DNA of 61,801 nt from NCBI GenBank assembly GCA_011620595.1, contig WOYX01000053.1, positions 33,235-95,035 of the forward strand, in the 5' to 3' direction. Below, piece after piece: positions 643 to 23,242 of the stretch. The notes under the pieces are model-generated. The model was given only the letters and a program-made list of their open reading frames with translations, searched no databases and was not told the DNA's origin. Position 1 is the stretch's first letter; each line of letters opens with the position of its first letter. The DNA is from Bacteroidales bacterium (GTDB taxonomy: Bacteria > Bacteroidota > Bacteroidia > Bacteroidales > VadinHA17). The position numbers and the translations under genes are program-made.

Positions 643-2421
643 TCACTGCTTGACAATGATCTTCGCCTTCTTGTCAAAATAGTACGTATGCAGCAGGTGG
701 TGTGCCTTCTCGGCGTTGGGTTCCCCGAGGAACTCCTTGTAAAGCTGAATGATGTACGGGTTCTCATGTGAGACCCTGATGGGCTTGTTTTTATCCTCCT
801 CATAAATCGCTCTGGCCCTGGCCTTGAGTATCGAAGAGTCGCCGTGGTGCAGGGGTTGTCCGCCTCCGCCTATGCATCCTCCGGGGCAGGCCATCACCTC
901 TATGGCATGAAATTTCGAGCGTCCGGCACGGACCTCATCAAGCAGCTTGCGTGCGTTGCCGAGGCCGTGTGCTATGCCGATATTGAGCGGGAAGCCGTCA
1001 AAATCAATAGTAGCTTGTCTGACACCTTCCATTCCTCTGAGCTCATCAAAGTCAAGACGACTGAGCTTCTTTCCCGTAAACAGTTCGTAAGCGGTACGTA
1101 CTGCTGCCTCAATGACACCGCCGGTGTTGCCGAAGATCACCCCGGCGCCGGTGGATTCACCCAGCGGCCTGTCGAAATCCGCATCCGGAAGATTGTTGAA
1201 GTCTATGTTGGCCTGCCTGATGAAGTGGGCCAGCTCACGGGTGGAGATGGAGAAGTCGACATCAGGGTTGCCGTCGACGGAGAATTCAGGTCTCTGGCTC
1301 TCATATTTCTTTGCCAGGCACGGCATGATGGAGACGACCACCATATCCTTGCGGCTGACATTGATTTTTTCAGCAAAGTATGACTTGGCAATGGCGCCGA
1401 ACATCTGCTGGGGCGACTTGGCCGTTGACGGGACATCCTTCAGGTCCGGGAAGTTATGCTCGAAGAAGTTGACCCATCCCGGACAGCATGATGTCAATAT
1501 TGGAATATTGGCATCCCTGTCGCCGTTGAGGAACTTGCCCAGCCTGGTAAGAAGCTCTGTGCCCTCTTCCATTATGGTGAGGTCGGCAGCAAAGTCGGTG
1601 TCGAAGACATAATCGAATCCGAGTTCTTTCAGGGCAGAGACAAGTTTTCCGGTTACAAGTGTTCCGGGTTTCATGCCGAACTCTTCACCGAGGGCAGCAC
1701 GTACGGCTGGTGCGGTCTGCACCACTACTGTCTTTGATGGATCGGCGATGGCACGAAGCACGTCGCCTGTGTGATCCACTTCTGTAAGAGCACCTGTGGG
1801 GCATACGGCAACGCACTGTCCGCAGTAGGTACAGGGTGAATATTCAAGGTTCTGTTCAAAGGCAGGGGCAACCACGGCCATAAATCCCCTGTTCACTGCC
1901 GAGAGGGCGCCAACGGTCTGTACCTCGTTGCACATCATCTCGCAACGGCGGCACATGATGCACTTGTCGGGGTCGCGTATGATTGACGGCGAGGTATCCT
2001 TCCTGTAAGTCGACATCTCCGCAATTTCCTGTCCGGGGATCTCTCTGATGCCCAGTCTTATAGCCATATCCTGCAAATCGCAGTTACCTGATTTGGGGCA
2101 TATGAGGCAATCTTTCGGATGGTCTGAGAGGATGAACTCCATAACCGTCCTGCGGGCGTTCATGACCCTTGGGGTGTGAGTGCGGACAACCGCTCCCTCA
2201 TCGCATTTGGTGATACATGCCGGAGAGAGGTTCCTGCGTCCCTGCACCTCGACGACGCATATCCTGCAACCTCCCGGTTTATTTTCGATATTCAGGTCTT
2301 CGAGCTTCATGTGGCAGAGGGTAGGTATGTCAATACCCATCCTGCGTGCAGCACTGAGTATGGTGGTGCCCTTCTCGACTTCTATCTGCTTGTTGTCTAT
2401 GGTAAGCTTTATTGTTTCCAT
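643..2421 (-). CDS. hydA: [FeFe] hydrogenase catalytic subunit HydA
   Basis: This is the catalytic subunit that interconverts protons and H2. In order it shows an N-terminal [2Fe-2S] ferredoxin domain, the His-Cys [4Fe-4S] motif (HPKDCLICPKSGNC), two bacterial-type 4Fe-4S motifs (CIMCRRCEMMC and CTYCGQCVAVCP) and the H-cluster domain. The three H-cluster signatures are intact: TSCCPGW, MPCLAKK and MACPGGCIGGGG. Size and domains fit the group A trimeric, NAD-linked, electron-bifurcating enzymes. I place the start at METIKL (base 2421), because AGGGAG lies 7 bases upstream, within the 17-base gap after hydB. In-frame starts at 2427 and 2439 are possible. No HydEFG maturases are in the window. 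Confidence 0.93.
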   Translation of the reverse strand: METIKLTIDNKQIEVEKGTTILSAARRMGIDIPTLCHMKLEDLNIENKPGGCRICVVEVQGRRNLSPACITKCDEGAVVRTHTPRVMNARRTVMEFILSDHPKDCLICPKSGNCDLQDMAIRLGIREIPGQEIAEMSTYRKDTSPSIIRDPDKCIMCRRCEMMCNEVQTVGALSAVNRGFMAVVAPAFEQNLEYSPCTYCGQCVAVCPTGALTEVDHTGDVLRAIADPSKTVVVQTAPAVRAALGEEFGMKPGTLVTGKLVSALKELGFDYVFDTDFAADLTIMEEGTELLTRLGKFLNGDRDANIPILTSCCPGWVNFFEHNFPDLKDVPSTAKSPQQMFGAIAKSYFAEKINVSRKDMVVVSIMPCLAKKYESQRPEFSVDGNPDVDFSISTRELAHFIRQANIDFNNLPDADFDRPLGESTGAGVIFGNTGGVIEAAVRTAYELFTGKKLSRLDFDELRGMEGVRQATIDFDGFPLNIGIAHGLGNARKLLDEVRAGRSKFHAIEVMACPGGCIGGGGQPLHHGDSSILKARARAIYEEDKNKPIRVSHENPYIIQLYKEFLGEPNAEKAHHLLHTYYFDKKAKIIVKQ

Positions 2422-2438
2422 CGTCATTCTCCCTCTCA

Positions 2439-4232
2439 TTAGTTGATTAGCACAGCGCTGAATTTACATCTCTCGAAGCAGGCACCGCATTTGATGCATT
2501 TCTTCTGGTCAATAAAGTGCAGCTCCTTGCGCTCTCCGCTGATGGCATTGACGGGGCATCCCCTGGCACATGCCGTGCATCCGACGCACTTCTCTTCGAT
2601 GATGGTATACTTCATCAGGTCACGGCATGAGCCGGCAGGGCATCTCTTATCCGTGACATGGGCTATATACTCATCCATGAAGTTGTCCATGGTTGAAAGG
2701 ACGGGGTTGGGTGATGTCTGGCCGAGTCCGCAAAGTGATGTATCCTTTATGACATTGCACATGTTCCTGAGCCTGTCGAGGTCAGCGAGGGTGCCGTTAC
2801 CCTTGGTGATATGAGTAAGCAGCTCGTATATCCTCTTGTTTCCGATACGGCAGGGAGCGCATTTCCCGCAAGACTCCTCCACGGTAAATTCCAGGAAGAA
2901 TTTTGCGATGGAGACCATGCAGTCATCTTCATCCATGACTATCATTCCTCCTGATCCCATCATTGAGCCGGCGGCAACCAGATTGTCAAAGTCGATGGGA
3001 GTGTCGAGGTGATGTTCGGTAAGACAGCCGCCCGAGGGGCCTCCTGTCTGTACAGCCTTGAACCTCTTGCCGTTCTTGATGCCACCGCCTATCTCAAAAA
3101 TGATCTCACGCAGTGTGATGCCCATTGGCACTTCGATGAGTCCCACGTTGTTGATCTTGCCGGCGAGGGCGAATACCTTCGTTCCCTTGGACTTTTCGGT
3201 ACCTATTGACGAGAACCACTCCCATCCCTTGTTGATGATTACCGGGACGCTGGCAAATGTCTCGACGTTGTTGACATTGGAGGGTTTGCCCATGAATCCG
3301 CTTTCGGCAGGGAAGGGAGGTTTGTTTGTGGGTTCACCGCGCATGCCCTCCATTGAGTGGATAAGGGCTGTCTCCTCGCCGCAGACAAATGCCCCGGCGC
3401 CGTAGCGTAGATCAATGTCAAAGCTGAAGTCGCTTCCCAGGATGTTGTTGCCAAGGAGGCCATATTCACGTGCCTGTGTAATTGCGATCTTCAGTCGCTT
3501 TATTGCCAGCGGGTATTCGGCACGGATGTAGATAAGGCCCTTCGAGGCGCCGATAGCATATCCGCAGATTGCCATTGCCTCGAGGACGGAGTGAGGGTCG
3601 CCTTCCAGGACAGAGCGGTCCATGAATGCGCCCGGATCACCCTCGTCGGCGTTACATACAACATATTTCTGGTAAGACTGGTTTTTAGAGGCTATTTCCC
3701 ATTTGAGTCCGGTGGGGAAACCGGCGCCGCCGCGCCCGCGAAGGCCGGATTTCTTGATGATGCCGATCACATCGGCAGCGGTGTATTCCGTGACACACTT
3801 TCCGATGGCAGCATAGCCTTCACGGGCGATGTATTCGTCGATGTTTTCAGGGTTGATGAATCCGCAGTTGCGCAGTGCAATGCGTATCTGCTTCCGGAAG
3901 GAGCCCATCTGCCCTGAACCGCTCACATGCTCACCGTTGGATGGATTGACGTAGAGCAGACGCTGTACCGGTTTGCCCTTGATGACATGCTCGGCCACAA
4001 TGGCTGCAGCGTCCTCCGGTCTGACCTGTACATAAAACGTATTGTCAGGCATAACCTTAACGACGGGTCCTTTTTCGCACAGGCCGAAACAACCGGTCAT
4101 TACAACCTGTACCTCGTTGCCAAGGCCCTTTTCTTCCAGTTCCCTCTTCAGGCTCTCAGCAATGAGAGCGCTTTCCGAGGCGCGACAACTTGTACCGCCA
4201 CAAACCAGAAGGTGCATTCTGAATTTTGACAT
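2439..4232 (-). CDS. hydB: NuoF-like flavoprotein subunit HydB
   Basis: This 597-aa protein is the NADH- and FMN-binding subunit and, by family knowledge, the likely bifurcation site. Its N-terminus is a thioredoxin-like [2Fe-2S] domain (CGGTSC and CFGLC). The NuoF core follows, with the glycine-rich nucleotide loop GLRGRGGAGFPTG, the CNADEGDPGAF segment, the YGAGAFVCGEETAL motif and the 4Fe-4S site CGKCAPC with a later Cys in DTSLCGLG. The C-terminus adds two ferredoxin clusters (CVGCTACARGCP and CIKCGACFERC). This fused N- and C-terminal layout separates HydB from Complex I NuoF. The gene lies 20 bases after the small 2Fe-2S gene and 17 bases before hydA. Confidence 0.93.
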   Translation of the reverse strand: MSKFRMHLLVCGGTSCRASESALIAESLKRELEEKGLGNEVQVVMTGCFGLCEKGPVVKVMPDNTFYVQVRPEDAAAIVAEHVIKGKPVQRLLYVNPSNGEHVSGSGQMGSFRKQIRIALRNCGFINPENIDEYIAREGYAAIGKCVTEYTAADVIGIIKKSGLRGRGGAGFPTGLKWEIASKNQSYQKYVVCNADEGDPGAFMDRSVLEGDPHSVLEAMAICGYAIGASKGLIYIRAEYPLAIKRLKIAITQAREYGLLGNNILGSDFSFDIDLRYGAGAFVCGEETALIHSMEGMRGEPTNKPPFPAESGFMGKPSNVNNVETFASVPVIINKGWEWFSSIGTEKSKGTKVFALAGKINNVGLIEVPMGITLREIIFEIGGGIKNGKRFKAVQTGGPSGGCLTEHHLDTPIDFDNLVAAGSMMGSGGMIVMDEDDCMVSIAKFFLEFTVEESCGKCAPCRIGNKRIYELLTHITKGNGTLADLDRLRNMCNVIKDTSLCGLGQTSPNPVLSTMDNFMDEYIAHVTDKRCPAGSCRDLMKYTIIEEKCVGCTACARGCPVNAISGERKELHFIDQKKCIKCGACFERCKFSAVLIN

Positions 4233-20129: not shown

Positions 20130-21530
20130 TCACACTGAAAAAGATTTTCCGTAGGCCGGGATCTCAATGTTTCTGAATCCTTCTGACTCGAGATACGACT
20201 GATATTTGACCTGTGTCTCATATTCGCCGTGCACCAGGAATACCTTTTGCAGCCTTGAGCTGTCCTGGCATGAGAGGTAGTCTGCCATCTCCCTGTAATC
20301 TCCGTGGCCGGAGTATGACTCGATCTTTTCAATATCTGCCCTCACCTCATATCTGTTACCGTGTATGGAGACCTCCTCGGCACCTCCCAGTATCCTGGCT
20401 CCCAGTGTTGAAGGAGCGCAATAGCCTACGGCCAGAACAGTATTGGCAGGATTGCTTATGCTGTTTGCCAGGTGATGTTTGACGCGCCCGGCCTCCATCA
20501 TCCCCGATGATGAGATGATGATTACCGGTTCCATGATATCATTAAGCCTTTTTGAATGTTCAACCTCGGTGATGTAAAAGAGGCTGTTGAACCCAAACGG
20601 GTCAGGGTCAGAAAGCATCACTTCCTGGACATCGCGATTGAAGCACTCAGTGTGGAGGCGGAATATATTCGTGGCATTGACTGAGAGCGGACTGTCAACA
20701 TAGATATCTACCCTGGGCAGTCTGCCGGCATTATATAATGTATTGAGCGAATAGACGACCTCCTGGGTGCGGCCTACACTGAAGGCAGGGATGATCAGCT
20801 TGCCCCTCTTCTCGACGCATGTATGACGTACTATCCTGAAGAGCTCCTCGTCAGATTCCTCGACTGTAGGGTGGAGGCGGTCGCCGTAGGTCGACTCGGT
20901 GATGAGGATGTCAGCCTGGGGAAATGGCTCAGGACTCTTCAGTATCCTGTTTGAAGGTCTTCCGATGTCACCGGTGTACGCCAGCCGTTTGATGCCGTCT
21001 CTCTCCCTCAGTTCAAGAGTTACCACACCACTGCCAAGCATGTGGCCGGTATTGGTGAATCTGATCGTGGTGAAGTCGTCTATTCGGAACTTGCGGTCAT
21101 AGGCCACCCCGATAAAGAGTTGCATCGAGGCCACCGCATCAGCCTGTGTGTAGAGAGGATCAACGGGGGGCAGATTTTGTCTTGCCCTCTTCTTGTTGAA
21201 GTACCTGGTATCATACTCCTGTATCTTTCCCGAATCGGCAAGCATTATGGAGCATAGATCACGGGTGGCATTGGTGCAGATCACCGACCCTGTGAAGCCG
21301 TTGCGGTAAAGAAAGGGGATAAGCCCTGAATGGTCTATATGGGCGTGTGACAGTATAACATGGTCAACCGAGGCTGGAGGAAAAGGCACTGCCCTGTTCA
21401 TCTCCTCTGTCTCCAGACCCTTTCCCTGGAACTGCCCGCAGTCAAGCAGGATATTTTTCCCGTGTTCTGTCTCAATAAGTATCTTGCTGCCTGTCACCTC
21501 GCGGGCAGCCCCGTAGAATGTCAGCTTCAT
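20130..21530 (-). CDS. Metallo-beta-lactamase/beta-CASP ribonuclease (RMMBL)
   Basis: The product is 466 aa from the ATG of MKLTFYGAARE; the longer frame adds an unlikely N-terminal extension. The metallo-beta-lactamase motif SHAHIDHSG is intact, with downstream metal-site segments NTGHMLGSG and YTGDIG. The beta-CASP part shows PAFSVGRTQE, and the C-terminal RMMBL segment has SGHGDY and FLVHGE. Such proteins act as exo- or endoribonucleases related to CPSF-73. It is cytoplasmic. It lies on the same strand as nhaD. Confidence 0.9.
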   Translation of the reverse strand: MKLTFYGAAREVTGSKILIETEHGKNILLDCGQFQGKGLETEEMNRAVPFPPASVDHVILSHAHIDHSGLIPFLYRNGFTGSVICTNATRDLCSIMLADSGKIQEYDTRYFNKKRARQNLPPVDPLYTQADAVASMQLFIGVAYDRKFRIDDFTTIRFTNTGHMLGSGVVTLELRERDGIKRLAYTGDIGRPSNRILKSPEPFPQADILITESTYGDRLHPTVEESDEELFRIVRHTCVEKRGKLIIPAFSVGRTQEVVYSLNTLYNAGRLPRVDIYVDSPLSVNATNIFRLHTECFNRDVQEVMLSDPDPFGFNSLFYITEVEHSKRLNDIMEPVIIISSSGMMEAGRVKHHLANSISNPANTVLAVGYCAPSTLGARILGGAEEVSIHGNRYEVRADIEKIESYSGHGDYREMADYLSCQDSSRLQKVFLVHGEYETQVKYQSYLESEGFRNIEIPAYGKSFSV

Positions 21531-21657
21531 GAATGGCTTATGTGGAATTTGAATCGCTAAGATAGCGAATGTTACCCTAAGCCATAGAAAAAATGACAAC
21601 TCTTTCTGTAAATTACCCTCAAATGTCCTTTTTTTAGATTTTTGATAATAAGCCTTT

Positions 21658-22037
21658 TCAGACGGAGGCCTTGTCCCAGAGAGGCAGTATCTCTTTTTTG
21701 AACTGCTCCTTTTCTCTTATCAGGGATTCCATATCAAGGCCGATCGATCTCTGGGCGGCAGCCTTGGAAGAGATATCGGGAACGGTGACATCCCTGATTC
21801 CCATGCCGGCCAATATTGATGCAAGGTCTATCCGGGCTTCGAGGCCCTTCATGATGCCGTTGCTCAGCACCCATCTGATTTATCATGCGGGGCACATCGG
21901 GGACTCTTGCATGTCCAGCATGTTGCTGGCTGGGGGCCGGCATCAGGCGTAAGGGGTCCCCCGGTACGAAGCGTGTTCCGGTTGTCCTCAATGGCATAGT
22001 AGTGTCCTCTTGCCTGTAATGCTTGTCATGGGTGTGG
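21658..22037 (-). pseudogene. nrfA: nrfA remnant (cytochrome c nitrite reductase), deleted and frameshifted
   Basis: Two pieces of NrfA remain. The first, in one frame, reads [15 protein letters not shown], then CWTCKSP, which is the lysine-ligated heme-1 site; an extra C then shifts the frame into [10 protein letters not shown]. Directly after this (about 21871) comes the C-terminal end of Nrf[31 protein letters not shown] and ILPLWDK, frame 21658-21870. About 100 N-terminal residues and some 300 central residues, with hemes 2-5, are gone. A functional pentaheme enzyme of about 480 aa cannot be made. Identification is from memory of NrfA conservation. It lies just after nrfH, the usual order. 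Confidence 0.8.
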
Positions 22038-22051
22038 GTATTGAGAGTTAG

Positions 22052-22606
22052 CTAAAGGTTATCCTTGAGGGCAGGGGTTATGGCGAAGGGTGTTGAAGAG
22101 ATGCTGTTAACCCTGTCGTGCGGAGTGTAGCGGTGACAGTCGAGGCACTGTCTTTCACGCCTTCCCGTCAGTGCTTCGGCGGGTATGCCGGGGCCGTCAC
22201 TGAAGAGAGAGGCGTGACAGCGGAGGCAGTTTTCCTGAACTACTTTCCTGCCTGCCTCCCTGATATAAACAGCCTGCGGTTCGTTGCGCAGGGTGAAGAC
22301 CGTGGCGTGGCGCAGGCCGTCGGAAGCCTTGAAGTAATATTTTCTTATGAAGCTGTCATGAGGCACATGGCACTCGTTGCAGTCGGTAACGGCCCGGTGG
22401 GCACTATGCGACCAGGTTGCGAACTGCGGCGTCATAATGTGGCAGTTGATGCAGACCCTGGGGTCATCGGAGAGATATGAGGTGGCGTTGGATATCTTCA
22501 GCAGGAAGAAAAAGAGACCTGTGAAGATGCCCAGTGTCATGATGACCGGGATGCGTCATCGGGGTGGAGGTGTAAAGAAACTTATCAGTTTATATTGTCT
22601 GCTCAT
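22052..22606 (-). pseudogene. nrfH: nrfH with an in-frame stop at codon 17
   Basis: NrfH is the membrane-anchored tetraheme quinol dehydrogenase that feeds NrfA. From the ATG at 22606 the frame reads MSRQYKLISFFTPPPR, then TGA (22558-22556), then RIPVIMTLGIFTGL. Homologues usually have Trp at this point, so TGG to TGA is likely. After the stop the frame is intact: one membrane helix and four heme motifs (CINCH, CNECH, CLRCH, CLDCH). A start at the ATG at 22540 would give 162 aa but lose the N-terminal cytoplasmic part. With nrfA destroyed, the locus is most likely inactive. Confidence 0.75.
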
Positions 22607-22666: not shown

Positions 22667-23194
22667 TCAACCCTGGGTGAAATTTATAAAACAGAGGGCC
22701 ACGAGGGCTGTTCCGTATCTCTTGTCTATTGTCAGTGACTCCCTGATGACTGTAGGCTCACCGAGGTAGTACTGTGAGAAGGTCCTGTCATGTAAGTCAT
22801 TGAGGACGGTGTAGAGTCTCTCCTCCAGAGCTTCCATATCGAAGTAACCTGCCAGTTCGCAGACCAGTCCTCCCACCTTCTCTTCGCAGGTTTCGTCAGT
22901 ATACATCCATGCAAATATCACCCCTGCAGATATGTGTTCACCGTAATACCCGTTAGCCACTGCCATGATGCTGCACAATTCTGAGCCATAGGGTGGCATG
23001 TCGATTTCATCCAGCGTCATCAGTTTCGCCGTCGCCGGCAGCACTGACGAGTAGTTCATGATGTTGTATTCGGCGATGCCCGCATCGTGCAGTGCCATAT
23101 GGTATGATCCGGGATGGAGGGCATATTCGCTGCATCCTGAACCCTTGGTTATAAAAAATTCATGCGGGATCCTGTTATTGGTGACTTTGACCAT
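22667..23194 (-). CDS. pdaD: Pyruvoyl-dependent arginine decarboxylase
   Basis: This 175-aa protein converts arginine to agmatine and CO2, for polyamine synthesis or acid resistance. The conserved pattern is clear: IPHEFFITKGSG, GSYHMALHDAGI and NYSSVLP. Self-cleavage between Ser49 and Ser50 would create the pyruvoyl group on Ser50. A later segment, SIMAVANGYYGE, is also family-typical. The ATG at 23194 is preferred over the TTG three codons upstream. No agmatinase or agmatine deiminase lies in the window. The gene is divergent from the Y_Y_Y regulator. Confidence 0.9.
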   Translation of the reverse strand: MVKVTNNRIPHEFFITKGSGCSEYALHPGSYHMALHDAGIAEYNIMNYSSVLPATAKLMTLDEIDMPPYGSELCSIMAVANGYYGEHISAGVIFAWMYTDETCEEKVGGLVCELAGYFDMEALEERLYTVLNDLHDRTFSQYYLGEPTVIRESLTIDKRYGTALVALCFINFTQG

Positions 23195-23242
23195 TTTGCG
23201 CAACTATGTCTGGGTTATATGCCGGGTTATTCCGGATCATGG

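Follow-up and report, generated by a model that had tools for sequence, protein, structure and literature searches.

Recent decay of an nrfHA nitrite reductase module in a Bacteroidales genome, at a site that probably erodes repeatedly within its genus

Introduction

NrfH is a membrane tetraheme cytochrome that receives electrons from menaquinol, NrfA is a pentaheme periplasmic nitrite reductase, and nitrite ammonification is usually traced through nrfA as its marker gene. According to the accessible part of one source, NrfA occurs in the Epsilonbacteraeota almost exclusively in heterotrophic members, H. pylori is without it, and independent losses have been inferred for other pathways of the group (PMC5401914). 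The Epsilonbacteraeota are also patchy for NrfA, as far as that text goes; the case described here differs in that decay has occurred within one genus, at a fixed site, and has left remnants (PMC5401914). In the accessible text on Desulfovibrio gigas, a detoxifying role is suggested for NrfHA and no growth on nitrite or nitrate is reported; unlike the decayed copy studied here, the complex is encoded in that genome (PMC4287179). The excerpt available of a third paper makes no mention of gene loss (PMC12285233). Among the literature matches listed, each represented by its title and the start of its abstract, no paper on nrfA or nrfHA pseudogenes or losses describes the present case.

Here we analyze a stretch of 61,801 nucleotides (the window; contig C46, positions 33235-95035) from the genome G000 of an uncultured anaerobic Bacteroidales bacterium, a 3.08-Mb draft of 63 contigs that is 96.5% complete. 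The site was compared with those of a genus sample of 22 genomes, 18 of which (G000 included) have a contig that covers both the arginine decarboxylase gene and the adjoining nrfHA site. The 17 named relatives found through this flanking decarboxylase are metagenome genomes, all of them Bacteroidales or Bacteroidetes.

Results and Discussion

The nrfHA site and its intact sister

The minus strand between 21658 and 22606 carries a full-length but interrupted nrfH followed by nrfA in three remains (Table 1). Alignment to relatives and profile searches bear out both the coordinates and the description in the initial annotation, which had called a decayed nrfHA here from the letters of the DNA and their open reading frames. 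The matches lie far beyond chance: the two larger nrfA pieces hit Cytochrom_C552 at E values of 2.5e-12 and 1.5e-7, and the NrfH query reaches 8.5e-126.

Table 1. Features of the decayed nrfHA site and its flanks, in window coordinates
Feature	Coordinates	Strand	Basis
beta-CASP metallo-hydrolase gene, intact flank	20130..21530	-	97% to G006, 466/466
J1, deletion of ~3.1 kb vs G006, with the genes for GH35, the Pit transporter and the DUF47/PhoU-like protein	21631..21658		comparison with G006
nrfA C-terminal 70 codons	21658..21870	-	NF008339 positions 408-476, E 1.5e-16; 90% identity to G006
J2, 9-bp microhomology CTCAGCACC, ~760 bp with hemes 2-5 missing	21863..21871		comparison with G006
nrfA heme-1 (CWTCK) block	21863..22016	-	PF02335 positions 56-101, E 2.5e-12
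C-run with +1 frameshift in nrfA	21899..21902	-	comparison with nrfA of G006, G020, G014, G001, G018
J3, deletion of 331 bp, nrfA N-terminal region	22016..22017		blastn break vs G006, L027 7866 to 8198
nrfA ATG and first 13 bases	22017..22029	-	blastn to G006 nrfA bases 1-13, 100%, E 0.18 by itself, at the expected position
nrfH pseudogene (tetraheme quinol dehydrogenase NrfH)	22052..22606	-	96% identity to G006 NrfH, 184/184 residues, 1 TGA
nrfH codon 17 = TGA	22556..22558	-	Trp in 12/12 intact congeners
pyruvoyl-dependent arginine decarboxylase family (PF01862), intact flank	22667..23203	-	98% to G006, 178/178; Pfam E 3.2e-26

The initial annotation had proposed alignment with NrfHA of related Bacteroidales as a check. 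The sister of G000 (G006; UFBoot 99) carries an intact nrfHA at the same place, in the order arginine decarboxylase-like gene, nrfH, nrfA, GH35, Pit transporter, DUF47/PhoU-like gene and beta-CASP hydrolase gene, with the Pit and DUF47/PhoU-like genes on the opposite strand (the names GH35, Pit and DUF47 come from reading the translations, not from a family search). Intact orthologues at this site in the close relatives G006, G020 and G014 mark the copy in the window as a pseudogene. Against the models of the described complex (NF008339, TIGR03153; PF02335, PF03264), NrfA of G006 scores 636.6 with an NCBIfam cut-off of 595 for NF008339, and its NrfH 160.8 with one of 134.2 for TIGR03153. The pieces in the window are direct relatives of this complex, but nrfA is fragmented and nrfH is interrupted. 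The neighbours of the site are open and give single full-length matches to G006, and the two sides of the site, nrfH included, show 8 gap openings per 8,357 aligned bases.

Some minor features of the flanks may be recorded. The decarboxylase-family gene upstream of nrfH stays below the NCBIfam cut-off, and its matches in G021 and G005 have one stop each, at the very end. The best NCBIfam hit of the beta-CASP copy in G006 is a type VII CRISPR Cas14 model, at 400 bits of an 800-bit cut-off, followed by an archaeal aCPSF1 model, these top hits being beta-CASP models that stay under their cut-offs; the protein is probably an ordinary beta-CASP RNase.

Three remains of nrfA

As the initial annotation had it, nrfA keeps the heme-1 region and the C-terminus, has a frameshift in a run of C and has lost hemes 2-5; comparison with G006 adds that the start codon and the first 13 bases also survive. 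Descent from nrfA is evident from the position and from residue identities to G006 NrfA of 100% and 90% in the two larger pieces, residues 116-154 of the heme-1 block, CWTCK included, being identical (39/39). This block is out of frame with the nrfA start codon. All 12 intact NrfA proteins have five heme motifs, the first being CxxCK, whereas the three frames of the window show CWTCK only, and instead of one frame over the whole NrfA model there are two pieces, at PF02335 positions 56-101 and 365-433 of 438. Judging from the sequence, the NrfA enzyme is unreadable from the window, which has lost the N-terminal region of the protein, its hemes 2-5 and its reading frame.

The site shows three deletions, one frameshift and one stop. 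At a random junction, with equal base frequencies, a microhomology of at least 9 bp such as that at J2 has a chance of ~3e-5. Three lesions plus two small ones are a lot for a short time, and a single complex event may lie behind them. We regard the locus as very probably a recently dead copy of the nrfHA module.

A profile search of the 96.5% complete G000 genome found no other nrfA, although a second copy could lie in the missing part. The sole other match, at G000:C53:62268, is a 359-residue multiheme protein below the family cut-off and was rejected as a second nrfA.

A nearly pristine nrfH with one stop

The TGA at codon 17 falls where tryptophan is expected, a reading of the initial annotation with which all intact congeners agree. 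We rejected the alternative that TGA is a sense codon here: 12 of the 32 long window open reading frames chosen for this count end in TGA, and nrfH itself holds TGA at one codon only. The stop precedes the membrane helix. All four CxxCH motifs are kept (seen by eye in the translation), and the frame that follows the stop, 162 residues long, scores 159.4 bits against the TIGR03153 cut-off of 134.2; what the window lacks of a complete NrfH is an uninterrupted frame with an N-terminal membrane anchor.

These features raise the question of whether NrfA alone is dead and NrfH is still made, from an ATG at codon 23, as an orphan quinol dehydrogenase that supplies another periplasmic cytochrome. The 162-residue frame, with its four hemes and a passing model score, speaks for this, as does the low dN/dS of nrfH given below. 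However, residues 1-22 are similar across the 12 intact relatives, with W17 and R18 invariant, a methionine stands at position 23 in only 4 of the 12, and the short form would lack the basic end on the cytoplasmic side as well as some of the membrane helix. Furthermore, a whole nrfH is found in none of the five other genus members that have lost nrfA and have a readable site (G019, G015, G021, G005 and G008). We therefore consider an orphan NrfH very improbable. The near-pristine state of nrfH with its one stop is explained by the recency of the loss, yet it fits retained function as well.

One element of the initial annotation did not survive. It had reported that a promoter-like element of nrfH was still in place, leaving the element unnamed; the candidate visible in the window spacer is TAnnTTTG, which we take to be a Bacteroidetes -7 motif. 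It occurs once in the spacer of the window and in 0 of 13 congeneric spacers, which gives no evidence of a surviving nrfH promoter.

Timing of the loss

The nrfH dN/dS between the window and G006 is 0.055, and intact pairs give 0.057-0.087. At sites where the outgroups G020 and G014 both agree with G006, the nrfH branch of the window carries 11 synonymous and 4 non-synonymous changes, the stop included. The unconstrained share of this branch is below 0.23 (Poisson bound, assumed constrained ratio 0.06), a rough bound, since synonymous distances to G006 vary from 0.19 to 0.59 across neighbouring genes and so suggest recombination. On the branch of the window, the heme-1 block has 2 synonymous changes and no non-synonymous one. 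In the C-terminal part of nrfA, the window branch has 3 non-synonymous and 2 synonymous changes and the intact G006 branch 3 and 1, so that the counts are uninformative. The constraint on nrfH over most of the branch indicates a recent loss; together with the intact same-site copies in the sister lineage and the failure to find a second copy, it sustains the recent loss proposed in the initial annotation.

Could the breakage be an assembly artefact?

Misassembly or a mixed-strain consensus could in principle mimic such breakage, and G000 is a draft in 63 contigs. Assemblers join on words longer than 9 bp, and the junction microhomologies are at most 9 bp, too short for a k-mer join. In addition, the site lies mid-contig, ~55 kb into a contig of 95 kb, the stop and the +1 base sit away from the junctions, no frameshift is seen in the flanking genes, and another species, G019, is independently broken well within a 247-kb contig. 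On this sequence evidence misassembly of the site is unlikely, and we give the artefact explanation as a whole very little credence.

Recurrent loss within the genus

Among the 18 readable genus members, nrfHA is intact in 12, broken in two (G000 and G019), reduced to a scar in G015 and absent from three (G021, G005 and G008). Outside the 18, G004 and G013 hold nrfA up to the contig end, and the site of G007 and G009 is unreadable. In G019 (L030:6438-7645), most of nrfH is missing, along with the start of nrfA and hemes 1-2, and an open frame of 367 codons is left; the scar in G015 amounts to 20 residues of nrfA. Searched at relaxed settings, the empty sites in G005, G008 and G021 yielded weak matches only (best E 0.005, 22 residues, in G008), which were taken as chance. 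For scale, PF02335 finds a match in 39 of 60 genomes at E 1e-3, G000 and weak multiheme matches included, and in 37 of 117 family genomes at 1e-10, the window's remnants included.

Four of the six non-intact genomes are sisters of intact ones (G000/G006, G019/G003, G015/G011 and G005/G017, with support of 99, 99, 96 and 91), and for this reason we regard the loss as recurrent. The tree was built from six flanking and island proteins and midpoint-rooted; several of its other nodes are weak (47-65), and some genomes contribute little sequence, the poorest 319 residues. Alternatively, nrfHA was not ancestral, transfer having brought it to the intact species and the 'absent' genomes having lacked it throughout, which we consider very improbable. 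G008, G007 and G009 do stand on deep branches without a match, but in 9 of the 12 intact genomes the same pair of genes encloses the module on one contig, the other three show the decarboxylase side, G000, G019 and G015 retain remnants, and transfer would at most cut the loss count from six to four.

Erosion also extends to the neighbouring genes. GH35 is truncated or missing in G000, G006, G019, G016, G017 and G021; in G006, its frame is closed by a stop 38 codons from the start. The whole G000 genome gives no match to the Pit query, which matches in 19 of 22 genus members, the match in G020 being a 43-residue fragment; Pit is also unmatched in G009 and G018, drafts that are 70% and 79% complete. 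Pit is lost or cut short in G000 and G020 and is spread over two frames in G013. DUF47 has disappeared from G000, and G020 and G001 have a shortened copy. We think it likely that the nrfHA site is a repeatedly eroding island, with at least four and probably six losses that left differing remains, where GH35, Pit and DUF47 erode too, and the flanks and the cytochrome c assembly gene stay. If this is true, the presence of nitrite ammonification in the group would have to be scored species by species.

Piecemeal erosion between nrfA and the beta-CASP hydrolase gene can be followed at 21631-21658 in the window, at L027:5473-6700 and at L031:9717-10422. Away from contig ends the flanks are whole, the hydrolase in 17/17 and the decarboxylase, with or without nrfHA, in 18/18 genus members.

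Interpretation and remaining respiration

The decay of nrfHA is ordinary gene loss of a known module, recent and recurrent. Selection for nrfHA would have lapsed late on the branch of this species, and deletions would then have followed, together with small changes; slippage or end joining would account for the deletion at the 9-bp direct repeat. The organism would no longer be able to convert nitrite to ammonium by the NrfHA route. Since this site appears to have decayed independently in other members of the genus, with its flanks kept intact, the module may be intermittently dispensable in this group.

That nrfA is present or absent within one genus makes a taxonomy-based assignment of the trait wrong for the two genomes with partial copies. 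A marker-based assignment would fail for the same two: their partial nrfA still matches the HMM (the window pieces pass the Pfam cut-off) and the enzyme is unreadable. The recurrence and the partial copies are of somewhat greater use than one lone pseudogene, and the pair of an intact and a freshly dead sister lends itself naturally to comparing the value of nitrite reduction for anaerobes of this kind.

The initial annotation had concluded that the loss left a fermentative, hydrogenase-bearing organism. The hydrogenase is there: an [FeFe] hydrogenase with a NuoF-like partner lies at 643-4232 of the window. 'Fermentative' fits less well, since several respiratory genes remain. G000 is among the 19 of 22 genus members that have cytochrome bd subunit I, and 20 of the 22 have the cytochrome c assembly domain PF01578; the G000 copy of this domain lies in a 1022-codon frame that by its length looks CcsBA-like, and two multiheme cytochromes lie near it. 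A PhsA-like molybdoenzyme of G000 adjoins an NrfD-family protein; it does not reach the PhsA cut-off, and by eye its start looks twin-arginine-like. With these genes in place, the organism has lost one outlet and not its respiratory chain. Nor need loss of the module equal loss of a respiration, given that an NrfHA is described in organisms for which no growth on nitrite or nitrate is reported (PMC4287179). The former role of NrfHA may have been respiration or nitrite/NO detoxification.

Nitrite would have come from outside, because no protein of NapA or NarG grade is found among the three molybdopterin enzyme matches of G000, one of them judged through its G006 counterpart. The PhsA-like one and another of 706 residues remain well short of the cut-offs for NapA and NarG; the third is cut by a contig end, and its full-length counterpart in G006 passes the formate dehydrogenase cut-off. 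A hydroxylamine-oxidoreductase-like substitute (PF13447) was matched in 0 of 22 genomes, with control genomes also giving no match, and the search is therefore uninformative.

Two further proteins may be noted. The 367-codon frame of G019 could be called and named nrfA despite its missing N-terminus and hemes 1-2. In G000, contig C4 encodes (L080:4016-5539, minus strand) a protein of ~500 residues that combines a NapC/NirT-type tetraheme (NapC/NrfH-like) domain with an FGE-sulfatase (formylglycine-generating-enzyme-like) domain; many other genus members have weak NrfH matches in frames of about this length, the domains having been scanned in the G000 protein only.
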